Source of the DNA: Cellulophaga sp. Hel_I_12
Lineage (GTDB): Bacteria > Bacteroidota > Bacteroidia > Flavobacteriales > Flavobacteriaceae
Assembly (NCBI RefSeq): GCF_000799565.1
Contig: NZ_JUHB01000001.1
Span: 2,173,501 to 2,237,500 of the forward strand
DNA: 64,000 nt
Direction of reading: 5' to 3'
Part shown: positions 51,169 to 54,712 of the stretch, piece by piece
Layout of the letters: each line of letters begins with the position of its first letter
Numbering within the stretch: position 1 is the stretch's first letter
Made by a program: the position numbers and the translations under genes
The notes under the pieces: generated by a model
The model's input: only the letters and a program-made list of their open reading frames with translations
Told to the model about the DNA's origin: nothing
Databases searched by the model: none

Positions 51169-53067
51169 ATGAGTGATGCAATTAAACATGAATGTGGAAT
51201 ATCTTTAATTCGCTTATTAAAGCCATTGTCCTATTATCAGGAAAAATATGGAACTGCATTTTATGGTGTAAATAAAATGTATTTGATGATGGAAAAGCAG
51301 CATAATCGTGGACAGGACGGTGCTGGTTTTGCAAGTATTAAGTTAGATATGAAAGCTGGCGAGCGCTATATGAGTAGAGTACGCTCTATTGCACAGCAAC
51401 CCATACAAGACATTTTTGCTCAAATTAACGAGCGCATTAATACCAGCTTTAAAGAACATCCAGAATATGAACAGGATGTGGAGCTGCAAAAAAAACATAT
51501 TCCTTATATCGGAGAGCTTTTACTGGGTCATGTACGGTATGGTACTTTTGGCAAAAATAGTATTGAAAATGTACACCCATTTATCCGTCAAAACAATTGG
51601 ATGCACCGTAACCTAATCGTTGCAGGGAACTTTAACATGACAAATGTTGATGTACTGTTCGATAACTTGGTTCAAATTGGGCAACATCCTAAAGAAATGG
51701 CCGATACGGTCACGGTTATGGAAAAAATTGGGCATTTCTTAGATGATGCCGTAGCCAAACTTTATAAAGAAATTAAAAAAGAAGGGTATAATAAGCAAGA
51801 GGCATCACCACTTATTGCAGAGCGCTTGAATGTGGCTAAAATATTAAGAAGAGCGGCGAAAAACTGGGATGGTGGGTACGCCATGGCAGGTTTGTTAGGG
51901 CACGGAGATGCTTTTGTTCTGCGTGATCCCGCTGGTATTAGACCAGCTTATTACTACCAAGATGATGAAGTAGTCGCCATTGCCTCTGAAAGACCTGCCA
52001 TACAAACCGTTTTTAATGTTCAATTTGAAAACGTAAAAGAATTAGATCCAGGTCATGCCATTTTGATTGGAAAAAATGGCCAAGTAAAAATCAAAAAAAT
52101 TCTTGAACCTACGGAACGTAAGGCTTGTTCGTTTGAACGTATTTATTTCTCTAGAGGTAGTGACAAAGAAATTTATCAAGAACGCAAAGAACTAGGCCGC
52201 CTTATTTTTCCAAAGATTCTAAAAGCTATCGATTCAGATATAAAAAATACTGTTTTTTCGTATATCCCCAATACTGCTGAAACTTCATTTTTTGGCATGG
52301 TGAAAGAAGCTCAAACTTATATGAATAAAAAGAAAGAAGAACAGATTCTTTCTTTAGGATACAAAATAACAAAGGAACAATTGCATGAAATTCTTGATGT
52401 ACGACCTAGAATCGAAAAGGTCGCCATTAAAGATGCCAAACTGAGAACATTTATTACACAAGACAGTGGTAGAGATGACTTGGTAGCCCATGTTTATGAT
52501 ATTTCTTATGGCTCTGTTAAACCAGGTGATAACCTAGTGATTATTGATGATAGTATTGTTAGAGGAACAACCCTTAAAAAAAGTATTCTTAAAATACTAG
52601 ATAGGTTACATCCAAAAAAAATAATAGTAGTTTCATCGGCCCCGCAAATTCGATATCCAGATTGTTATGGCATTGATATGGCAAAATTAGAAGACTTTAT
52701 TGCTTTTAGAGCGGCGCTTGAATTACATAAAGATCGAGGAACTACTCCAGTAATAGACGCTATTTATCAAAAATGTCTTTTACAAGTGAGCTCTAAAGAT
52801 AAGGATGTTATTAACTACGTTAAGGAATTTTATGCGCCTTTTACTCCTGAGGAAATATCTGAGAAAATAGGAACATTGTTAAGTTCACCTGAAATTAATG
52901 CAGAGGTTCAAATTATCTATCAAACGATTAAAAATCTTCATCAAGCCTGCCCTAAAAATCTTGGGGATTGGTATTTTACGGGAGATTACCCAACACCGGG
53001 AGGAAATAGAGTGGTAAATAGAGCATTTATAAATTTCTATGAGGGTAAAAACGAAAGAGCCTACTAA
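51169..53067 (+). CDS. purF: Amidophosphoribosyltransferase
   Basis: 632 aa, the first committed enzyme of purine synthesis, making phosphoribosylamine from PRPP and glutamine. The N-terminal nucleophile is Cys9 ('HECGISLIR'), so an 8-residue propeptide should be removed. The glutaminase domain is followed by the PRPP-binding loop 'VIIDDSIVRGTT' (about residues 461-472). It is longer than the E. coli enzyme, as in other Bacteroidota. It stands downstream of a PfkB kinase and a short terminator and just before the small-RNA array. Confidence 0.94.
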   Translation: MSDAIKHECGISLIRLLKPLSYYQEKYGTAFYGVNKMYLMMEKQHNRGQDGAGFASIKLDMKAGERYMSRVRSIAQQPIQDIFAQINERINTSFKEHPEYEQDVELQKKHIPYIGELLLGHVRYGTFGKNSIENVHPFIRQNNWMHRNLIVAGNFNMTNVDVLFDNLVQIGQHPKEMADTVTVMEKIGHFLDDAVAKLYKEIKKEGYNKQEASPLIAERLNVAKILRRAAKNWDGGYAMAGLLGHGDAFVLRDPAGIRPAYYYQDDEVVAIASERPAIQTVFNVQFENVKELDPGHAILIGKNGQVKIKKILEPTERKACSFERIYFSRGSDKEIYQERKELGRLIFPKILKAIDSDIKNTVFSYIPNTAETSFFGMVKEAQTYMNKKKEEQILSLGYKITKEQLHEILDVRPRIEKVAIKDAKLRTFITQDSGRDDLVAHVYDISYGSVKPGDNLVIIDDSIVRGTTLKKSILKILDRLHPKKIIVVSSAPQIRYPDCYGIDMAKLEDFIAFRAALELHKDRGTTPVIDAIYQKCLLQVSSKDKDVINYVKEFYAPFTPEEISEKIGTLLSSPEINAEVQIIYQTIKNLHQACPKNLGDWYFTGDYPTPGGNRVVNRAFINFYEGKNERAY

Positions 53068-53173
53068 AGCTATCATCGATGAAAAGCACCTTTAAGTGCA
53101 TTTTATCGACAATACTTGCAGTTTATCGTAATTATCGTCGTTTCAACGACTATGAGAGTAATTTTAACACTTG

Positions 53174-53249
53174 CCATAGCATAAGTAGGTTAAGTTCATG
53201 GTAAGATTTGGGGAAAAAGGCGAAGTTTATCTTCGCCTTTTTTATTTTT
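53174..53249 (+). ncRNA. Small RNA unit 1 of a four-copy array
   Basis: The conserved head begins CCATAGCATAAGTAGGTTAA (53174) and continues through a TTCATGG segment to a G run. It is followed by a 12-bp terminator hairpin (AAAAAGGCGAAG at 53214-53225, CTTCGCCTTTTT at 53231-53242) and a T-rich tail. A weak -7-like TAATTTTA lies upstream (53158 region) at 7-nt, not 5-nt, spacing. It is the copy nearest purF, 107 nt past that gene. The hairpin stem differs from the other copies but pairs fully. Confidence 0.7.
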
Positions 53250-53522
53250 AAAATCTGATTTTCTCTCATACCTAAGCTCAATGCAGTAATGCACATGCAA
53301 CTAAGCCCCCTTTTTCAGCGGGTTGTGTTAGATCTACACATTCAAAGTCTTATAAGGAATTACATCCAAAGTTAACAACGAACTTTCCTAACTACATGAT
53401 TTATTTCCCTTCATCCTTTCTCTTTTTAATCTTTATTGAAGACCAAACACCCTAATATGTACCGGTTAACTTTAAATAGTGCGTATTCATCTAAAACATA
53501 CTGCCTGTTTTACAACAATGAA

Positions 53523-53530
53523 TATCTTTG
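53523..53530 (+). promoter_or_regulatory. -7 box of small RNA unit 2
   Basis: TATCTTTG, a perfect match, ending exactly 5 nt before the conserved head. A CTG lies 19 nt upstream in the -33 position, and TTCATCTAAAA (53486-53496) stands 26 nt before the box, as in unit 3. Confidence 0.65.
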
Positions 53531-53535
53531 ATGCA

Positions 53536-53610
53536 CCATAGCATAAGTAGGTTAAGTTCATGGTAAGATTTGGGGAAAAAGGTAGAGCTATGCTCTACCT
53601 TTTGTTTTTT
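53536..53610 (+). ncRNA. Small RNA unit 2 of a four-copy array
   Basis: The head is identical to unit 1 over about 45 nt, from CCATAG to the A tract before the hairpin. The terminator is GGTAGAGC (53581-53588) paired with GCTCTACC (53592-53599), flanked by A and T tracts. Inside the head, CCAT and ATGG can close a short stem around a 20-nt loop. No ORF of consequence is present. Confidence 0.75.
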
Positions 53611-53706
53611 AAACATGAACCAAAGCCAACAGAGAACCATTTCGTAATCAAGTTTATTTCCTAAAAATAGCATTTCAACTTATAATCAAGACGTTCATCT
53701 AAAAAA

Positions 53707-53738
53707 TTGCTTAAAAGGCCCTAGTTGGTTTAATTTCG
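53707..53738 (+). promoter_or_regulatory. Promoter of small RNA unit 3
   Basis: TTG (53707-53709), a 21-nt spacer and TAATTTCG (53731-53738, one mismatch), then 5 nt to the conserved head. TTCATCTAAAA (53694-53704) lies 26 nt before the -7 box, the same distance as in unit 2. Confidence 0.65.
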
Positions 53739-53743
53739 TAGAA

Positions 53744-53818
53744 CCATAGCATAAGTAGGTTAAGTTCATGGTAAGATTTGGGGGAAAAAGGTAGAGCTAT
53801 GCTCTACCTTTTTCATTT
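53744..53818 (+). ncRNA. Small RNA unit 3 of a four-copy array
   Basis: The head is the same as in units 1 and 2, with one extra G in the G run. The terminator stem GGTAGAGC/GCTCTACC is identical to unit 2, followed by TTTTTCATTT. The shared hairpin and shared upstream element show that units 2 and 3 are the most recent duplicates. It starts 208 nt after unit 2. Confidence 0.75.
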
Positions 53819-53912
53819 CTGATAATCAGCACTTTACCAAATAATAAAGTCCTACTCCTCCTAAAACCATCAAATTAATCGTAAATAAACACATAAATTA
53901 TAGGAGAATCTT

Positions 53913-53942
53913 TTGATATTTCTCTAAATACCAGTATTTTAG
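53913..53942 (+). promoter_or_regulatory. Promoter of small RNA unit 4
   Basis: TTG (53913-53915), a 19-nt spacer and TATTTTAG (53935-53942, one mismatch), then 5 nt to the conserved head. Confidence 0.65.
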
Positions 53943-53947
53943 CATCG

Positions 53948-54019
53948 CCATAGCATAAGTAGGTTAAGTTTATGGTAAGATTTGGGATGAAAAGGGTAGA
54001 GGAAACTCTACCCTTTTCT
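53948..54019 (+). ncRNA. Small RNA unit 4 of a four-copy array
   Basis: The head has a single C-to-T change (TTTATGG in place of TTCATGG) that leaves the CCAT/ATGG pairing intact, and it differs from the others just after the G run. The terminator is distinct: GGGTAGAG and CTCTACCC around a GAAA loop, then TTTTCTA. It starts 204 nt after unit 3 and is the copy nearest sod. Confidence 0.72.
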
Positions 54020-54029
54020 ATTTGGTATT

Positions 54030-54077
54030 ACAACACAAAAGTCCGTTTGGAATTAACCAAACGGACTTTTGTGTTGT
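54030..54077. terminator. Perfect 21-bp hairpin between the RNA array and sod
   Basis: Arms 54030-54050 and 54057-54077 are exact inverted copies around an AATTAA loop. The sod gene ends 27 nt away on the minus strand. There is no long T tract, but each arm contains TTTT on the reading strand, so it probably ends or stabilises the sod transcript and also separates it from the RNA array. Confidence 0.7.
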
Positions 54078-54103
54078 AGCTCTATTTTATTGCGATACGT
54101 AGC

Positions 54104-54712
54104 TTATTTATTCGCCGCGTATAAGGCTGATACCTTTTTCCAGTTAATCACATTAAAAAATGCAGTGATATAATCTGGTCTTCTATTTTGGTAATTTAAA
54201 TAATAAGCGTGCTCCCAAATATCTAATCCTAAAATAGGAAAACCTGTGCAGCCTACTTCTGGCATTAAAGGATTGTCTTGGTTAGGTGTAGAACAAACTT
54301 CGACCTTACCGCCTTTATGCACACAAAGCCATGCCCAACCAGATCCAAATCTTGTCCCTGCCGCCTTAGAAAATGCTTCTTTAAACGCGTCAAAAGAACC
54401 AAATGCTGCATCAATGGCAGTCGCTAAGTCTCCTGAAGGTTTTCCTCCGCCGTCGGGCGACATCACTTCCCAAAATAAAGAATGATTATAGAAACCTCCA
54501 CCATTATTACGAACAGCAGCATTACTCATGTCTAAGTTTTTCAAAATAGCTTCGATCGATTTTTTCTCTAAATCTGTGCCTGCAATTGCGTTATTCAGGT
54601 TCGTTGTGTACCCGTTATGATGTTTTGTATGGTGTATTTCCATAGTGCGAGCATCAATATTTGGTTCAAGTTCATCATATGCGTATGGTAATTTTGGTAA
54701 TTCAAAGGCCAT
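54104..54712 (-). CDS. sodB: Superoxide dismutase (Fe/Mn type)
   Basis: A 202-aa cytosolic enzyme that converts superoxide to oxygen and hydrogen peroxide. The metal ligands are visible: His in '[12 protein letters not shown]' (about residues 25-36), His in '[11 protein letters not shown]' (about 73-83) and Asp/His in '[12 protein letters not shown]' (about 158-169). Whether iron or manganese is used cannot be read with confidence. A perfect -7 box (TAACTTTG on the minus strand, 54759-54766) lies upstream. Confidence 0.95.

Follow-up and report, generated by a model that had tools for sequence, protein, structure and literature searches.

A conserved tandem array of probable sibling small-RNA genes in the Flavobacteriaceae, predicted to pair with mRNAs at their translation starts

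Introduction

Regulation by small RNAs (sRNAs) appears to be little explored in the Flavobacteriaceae. Within the stretch of 64,000 nucleotides of the Cellulophaga sp. Hel_I_12 genome that we analysed as a whole (the window), the interval between the gene of a glutamine-amidotransferase-family protein and sod contains four short units whose first parts are nearly identical, which arrangement raises the question of whether these units are independent sRNA genes and, if so, what their common part recognizes. The reading that we favour, at a probability of about 0.82, is that the units form a tandem array of sibling sRNAs acting in trans, which would clamp the initiation of translation in the manner of FopS of Bacteroides.

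Results

Anatomy of the locus

Each of the four units is about 75 nt long: a 39-nt head that hardly varies is followed by an intrinsic terminator peculiar to that copy. The heads start on the + strand at precisely the four positions given in the original prediction—53174, 53536, 53744, and 53948—with spacings of 362, 208, and 204 nt; and a search for CCATAGCATAAG with at most one mismatch gave 4 matches against a shuffle mean of 0.22, none of 100 shuffles containing four. The units and their neighbours are:

51169..53067, + strand: upstream neighbour, a 632-aa glutamine-amidotransferase-family protein (GATase_7 domain), here called purF, a name taken over from the original prediction
53174..53249, + strand: sRNA copy 1 (first), with head at 53174-53212, terminator stem at 53213-53243, and T tract
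53536..53610, + strand: sRNA copy 2 (middle type), with head, terminator stem at 53577-53603, and T tract
53744..53818, + strand: sRNA copy 3 (middle type), with head and terminator stem at 53784-53814
53948..54022, + strand: sRNA copy 4 (last type, C24T plus GATGAAAAGGG), with head and terminator stem at 53989-54018
54104..54712, - strand: downstream neighbour sod, Fe/Mn superoxide dismutase

Over head positions 1 to 39 the copies differ only in that copy 4 has T instead of C at position 24, and beyond position 39 the copies diverge from the G run onward, the terminator included, so that the near-invariance originally described—one substitution plus changes around the G run—was borne out. The hairpin and T tract attributed to each head were likewise recovered, in that 4 of the 6 terminator-like sites within 53000-54150 belong to the units (shuffle mean 0.5). 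The whole units folded better than their shuffles (z -2.5 to -4.4), while the head alone did not (z -0.1). A 5' hairpin of the head found no covariation support in 24 of the 33 listed heads and, on that basis, was set aside; two of four heads folded adopted another fold. The spacers had been considered unrelated, which description holds for the most part, the exception being an element upstream of the promoter, TTCATCTAAAA, common to copies 2 and 3. Between the array and sod lies a perfect 22-bp inverted repeat with a 6-nt loop (window 54029-54078), likely the terminator of the convergent sod gene.

A coding reading of the units was dropped for want of a conserved peptide across the copies: the ATGGTA frame stops at many different places and is shifted in the Flavobacterium-type copies, in keeping with the original view that no ORF is shared.

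Distribution and synteny

The array is a conserved Flavobacteriaceae locus. BLASTN against the genomes of the family, as proposed with the original prediction, was run with one unit as query and gave a match at E ≤1 in 277 of 299 genomes, with 238 of these below 1e-6 among the matches listed and 39 weak (best E >0.01). With stricter filters, a covariance model of 90 units located the array in 40 of 50 family genomes but nowhere in the roughly 196 genomes that represent the rest of the order, which split was read from a listing where 186 genomes have no row. An exact-pattern search of named genomes matched at least 118 stretches; the 80 titles among the matches listed name Flavobacteriaceae genera or unclassified Bacteroidota/Flavobacteriia. 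The same search gave six copies in Zobellia uliginosa. A short 17-mer pattern searched across the class remained at chance level and was discarded.

The position of the array is likewise conserved, since it adjoins purF or sod in 95 of 99 loci (purF in 85, sod in 80), a set that includes 19 hand-picked loci (a 20th pick, L132, was missed by the pattern of the script) and in which at least two pairs, L138/L155 and L131/L189, appear to be the same contig twice. A head confined to a known mobile repeat, one of the outcomes that the original prediction regarded as adverse, was not seen: the locus is syntenic, the own genome (4,031,126 bases) holds no copies beyond these four when searched with a 22-base head pattern at up to 3 mismatches, and the viral contigs contained 0 exact matches to the one head pattern tried, upon which result spread by phage was rejected.

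Head columns 1 to 23 are invariant in 90 units, which invariance is in part a matter of choice because the alignment was drawn from the best-scoring BLASTN loci. The divergent Flavobacterium-type heads retain AGTAGGTTAAGTTTATGGTAGATTTGGGG, the 5' arm being variable.

Promoters, terminators, and copy types

A sigma-A-type -7 box (TAnnTTTG) lies 5 to 7 nt ahead of each head in the window, accompanied by other upstream elements:

53159..53166, + strand: TAATTTTA, weak -7-like box of copy 1, separated from the head by 7 nt
53486..53499, + strand: TTCATCTAAAA element 50 nt upstream of copy 2, a repeat conserved before middle copies
53523..53530, + strand: TATCTTTG, -7 box of copy 2, separated from the head by 5 nt
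53694..53707, + strand: TTCATCTAAAA element 50 nt upstream of copy 3, a repeat conserved before middle copies
53731..53738, + strand: TAATTTCG, -7 box of copy 3, separated from the head by 5 nt
53926-53942, + strand: AAATACCAGTATTTTAG stretch of the copy 4 promoter, conserved in last copies
53935..53942, + strand: TATTTTAG, -7 box of copy 4, within AAATACCAGTATTTTAG and separated from the head by 5 nt

In F. psychrophilum the sigma-A box TAnnTTTG is described at -12 to -5 of mapped starts (PMC9723704), from which spacing the head should be the 5' end of the RNA, so that four transcripts starting at the head are predicted for the window.

We compared the upstreams of 316 distinct units (loci L005-L034 and L095-L224), across which a TAnnTTTG-like box precedes the head. 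Counted by type, the distance from the box to CCA was exactly 5 nt in 92 of 96 middle, 39 of 42 last, and 26 of 49 first copies and in 110 of the remaining 129; and the box scored at least 5 of 6 in all 96 middle copies, against 13 of 96 shuffled upstreams. A terminator stem of at least 9 bp, G-U pairs allowed, was present in 314 of 315 units, with 101 distinct stem arms. The family-wide boxes together with these terminators support the original proposal of sibling small RNAs with a sequence-specific head.

The copies sort into first, middle, and last types, each with its own conserved upstream, which types tend to hold their order across genera in the loci compared. The last type comprises 42 of the 316 distinct units, copy 4 of the window included, and has the upstream consensus CAATACCAGTAATTTAG, present in the window as AAATACCAGTATTTTAG. 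That promoter stretch (consensus CACAATACCAGTAATTTAG) is unusually conserved in the last copies, unlike in the others. The TTCATCTAAAA element ahead of copies 2 and 3 is a probable activator site; and the middle-copy upstreams in general bear two TTnAnC-like elements with a distance of 21 nt between them, one about 50 nt and the other about 71 nt upstream of the head, which pair looks like a direct-repeat activator site common to the middle and the Flavobacterium-type copies.

A proposed bipartite target site at translation starts

The target rule proposed for these sRNAs is new here. The head has two segments, UAAGUAGGU and AUUUGGG, to which the site CCCAAAT-N0-13-ACCTACTTA is the complement, and this complementarity is sequence-specific and conserved in several genera. 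Among the matches listed for 199 family genomes, the site occurred at 51 places in 42 genomes (one place being sRNA antisense) against 11 for the reversed pattern, while the one-base-changed motif ACCTACTAA occurred at 12 places against 21 for its own reversed control. With 30 loci fetched, 18 of 29 bipartite places overlapped or directly preceded the start codon (ATG) of an ORF with a length of 80 aa or more; the changed motif was at ORF starts in 2 of 12 instances, which two resemble, by eye, 7TMR and CAP-domain proteins. A search for DTTAACCTACTTATG—in which the D excludes the sRNA's own antisense—gave 12 places in 120 family genomes versus 4 for the reversed pattern; 5 of those 12 also had CCCAAA upstream, one place was in an orthologue of the lipoprotein considered below, and a CAP-domain protein carries the DTTAACCTACTTATG site as well. 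Variants of the half-site reading CCCGAAT would keep pairing through G-U. To some extent the bipartite site might reflect a leader or promoter element.

Three genes recurred with the bipartite site: that of a lipoprotein (5 loci), that of a protein of 415-437 aa (4 loci, L395, L398, L404, and L418, with L462 added by eye), and that of another lipoprotein-like protein (3 loci), where the site spans the start codon, as in ATGAAAACCTACTTA. The L395 copy of the 415-437 aa protein, the only one scanned, has a 7TMR-DISM domain and a sub-threshold C-terminal LuxR-type domain; this 7TMR-DISM protein, a membrane-bound regulator, carries the sRNA site at its start in several genera. Among the proteins met only once with the site are a choice-of-anchor L protein and an M28 peptidase that has a T9SS sorting tail. 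Two similar 29-aa ORFs with YVAKKVFL inside, from two genera (L362 and L406), have the sRNA site at the start codon.

The lipoprotein had been picked for its site in the genome of the window and in one other, and the remaining orthologues were obtained by protein similarity, 35 of 199 family genomes giving a match. After dropping 8 of 30 fetched loci, where the rule of the script found no start, the 22 orthologues left had a mean duplex energy of -24.8 with the head, versus -15.5 +- 1.4 for shuffled heads, a value reached by 0 of 200 shuffles. The half-sites occurred in order in 18 of these 22 orthologues versus 3 of 944 starts of the own genome, two of which three are the MKCLECNKEL and 119-aa candidates described next. 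The match of two head segments to a start-codon-associated mRNA site lends support to the original suggestion that the head might bind mRNAs.

Predicted pairing within the genome of the window

At 944 ORF starts of the window's genome, taken from 60 stretches plus the window, we observed a modest excess of pairing with the start regions. With the 40-nt head, 73 of the 944 reached -20 kcal/mol, as compared with 46.4 +- 12.5 for shuffled heads (3 of 120 attaining that number); at the stricter cut-offs of -22 and -24, the count was reached by 15 and 7 of 120 shuffles, respectively. The 30-nt core gave 24 start regions at -20 versus 12.6 +- 5.1 (3 of 100 shuffles). For the 40-nt head neither gene interiors (90 vs 104) nor 3' ends (43 vs 52) were in excess, and exact head matches of 9 to 12 nt were not clearly in excess at these starts. 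Signal-like starts, called by a crude script rule, were only slightly commoner among the 40 best candidates (21) than in the rest (368 of 904). The top candidates included a protein beginning MKCLECNKEL, whose start codon falls within a perfect match of 14 nt, TTAACCTACTTATG, as well as a 119-aa lipoprotein-like protein with CCCAAATTAAACCTACTTATC directly ahead of its ATG.

A SusC/TonB regulon was rejected as a class, since the TonB plug starts paired no better than the background: for 30 of the 44 TonB plug genes of the own genome the mean was -14.4 versus -14.2 kcal/mol (p 0.44). One TonB-dependent receptor, at L088, was an outlier at -28.8 kcal/mol (second estimate, -26.3).

Counter-evidence from Flavobacterium

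In 199 Flavobacterium genomes many copies read CAUUAGUAGG, and the site was not clearly enriched: among the matches listed, 20 places remained after the removal of 19 sRNA-antisense places, versus 13 for the reversed control. Those 20 comprised 14 with TAA and 6 with TTA, which is the direction expected for a compensatory shift of the target, though not clearly above the control, so that we do not claim such a shift. The places were at ORF starts in 5 of 29 examined, and about 13 of 30 loci were sRNA antisense.

Discussion

Proposed mechanism and alternatives

From the conserved promoters and terminators, we infer that each gene would yield, from its own sigma-A promoter, an RNA of about 70-75 nt that, to judge from the promoter spacing, would begin at or next to the head. 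Segment CAUAAGUAGGUUAA would be an apical loop if a weak 5' hairpin forms, and segment GAUUUGGGG would be unpaired ahead of the terminator. Both segments would then pair in the cell with 5'-CCCAAAT...ACCTACTTAT-3', a site that covers the start codon or lies immediately ahead of it, with the middle of the head looped out, which pairing would block the entry of the ribosome. The regulon thus repressed would consist of lipoproteins, secreted proteins, and one membrane sensor-regulator; and since the siblings have one seed and different conserved promoters according to whether they are first, middle, or last, several inducing signals would feed that one regulon.

If, as an alternative, the RNAs were real and the invariant head mainly bound a protein, through titration of the CsrB type, complementarity to mRNAs would be secondary. 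The head is indeed conserved beyond what a seed needs—columns 1 to 23 in the units from best-scoring loci—and that conservation takes in a UUCAUGG middle that the lipoprotein target leaves unpaired; yet the conserved target site is complementary rather than similar to the head and often at start codons, a single-base change in the site abolishes its enrichment, and a protein-bound middle segment could coexist with pairing, so that we consider this alternative distinctly unlikely. The same siblings might instead be activators, in which case they would open up a leader structure or protect the mRNA of their targets. The position of the site does not by itself fix the sign, and Rfp18 of F. psychrophilum is described as required for full levels of two protease mRNAs (PMC9723704); but the site ends at or includes the AUG, where FopS is described to repress (PMC11697453), and activation accordingly seems to us improbable. 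The last alternative, that of a repeat or attenuator array whose copies are not transcribed independently, being either left over from duplications or a barrier to transcription between purF and sod, would suit a row of terminators between convergent genes and the likeness of the copies; the head, however, is conserved while the spacers and terminator stems diverge, the promoters are conserved per copy type, and the types tend to keep their order across genera, which features leave that explanation hardly any likelihood.

Significance

If translation-clamping siblings are the correct reading, a single two-part seed clamps the start codons of lipoprotein, secreted-protein, and sensor mRNAs, and several signals drive the regulon. 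This would be a widespread sRNA locus that keeps its position and whose target rule can be read off the sequence, by virtue of which rule the regulon becomes predictable in many marine and soil genomes. Bacteria of the Flavobacteriaceae type largely lack Shine-Dalgarno sequences, and the array offers a direct test of an sRNA block of initiation in such bacteria.

Comparison with known RNA systems

The original prediction considered membership in an existing Rfam family such as flavo-1, a motif described as widespread in the Flavobacteriaceae (PMC9723704). That part did not stand: no family, flavo-1 included, reached its gathering score in the window, upon which Rfam membership was rejected, and flavo-1 was absent from the 44 matches at E ≤10 over the array, which sub-threshold matches look mostly like terminator or hairpin resemblances. 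The literature covered, largely from outside the subscription journals, contained no recognisable description of the array, which may be among the 85 new RNAs of F. psychrophilum.

With LhrC1-5 of Listeria the array has in common the multicopy siblings with a shared seed, and the sequence signals—repeated copies that carry individual promoters and terminators, and that seed—agree with the LhrC-like build originally proposed. LhrC1-5, whose seeds are CU-rich, repress envelope proteins at their start sites. The sequences, however, are unrelated and the phylum is another, and the Rfam search of the window gave no LhrC match. Rfp18, an F. psychrophilum sRNA described as affecting secreted-protein mRNAs and pairing via its third stem-loop (PMC9723704), is similarly flavobacterial, and secreted-protein mRNAs are predicted targets of the window family as well; in contrast to that family, tandem copies are not mentioned in the part of the source consulted, the comparison being by description only.

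The closest known system is FopS (GibS; Rfam RF04319), described as multicopy Bacteroides sRNAs of about 70 nt with a -7 box, a short 5' seed, and a terminator, that repress translation by pairing over mRNA start regions, RbpB being the antagonist (PMC11697453). The window family resembles FopS, so described, in belonging to the Bacteroidota, in its multiple copies, length, -7 box, and terminator, and in its predicted start-region pairing, for which last the own-genome, bipartite-site, and lipoprotein tests provide the computational evidence. The window-type head and FopS have in common a core, UUCAUGGUA-(UU)-AGAUUU-GG, whose parts follow one another in the same order ahead of the terminator and align as TTCATGGTA--AGATTT--GG. 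The score of 26 for this head against FopS form 1, for one pair of representatives, was reached by 7 and 5 of 2000 shuffles and the score against form 2 by 55 and 73 of 2000, whereas the Flavobacterium-type heads showed no significant similarity (540 to 860 of 2000). The FopS model itself, whose gathering score is 56, gave at best 17.6 bits (E 7.4 over the array, 0.69 for a single copy) and no match in the own genome with stricter filters. The two systems differ, moreover, in that FopS matches are mostly dispersed whereas the window family is tandem at one locus, uses a second segment, UAAGUAGGUUAA, and does not prefer TonB/SusC starts. RRM_1 (PF00076), the domain of an RbpB-type partner, had 0 matches in the own genome, with Bacteroides ihuae as a positive control. 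The array appears to operate as FopS does, but homology to FopS is unproven, and we do not claim membership. We advance only tentatively, as a rather doubtful possibility, that the array is the core of a family-wide post-transcriptional envelope regulon with promoter-specialised siblings, derived together with FopS from an ancient sRNA of the Bacteroidota that had the UUCAUGGUA-AGAUUU core, the partner protein and targets having been exchanged later. Set beside FopS, the array offers a test of whether sRNA seeds outlive their protein partners.
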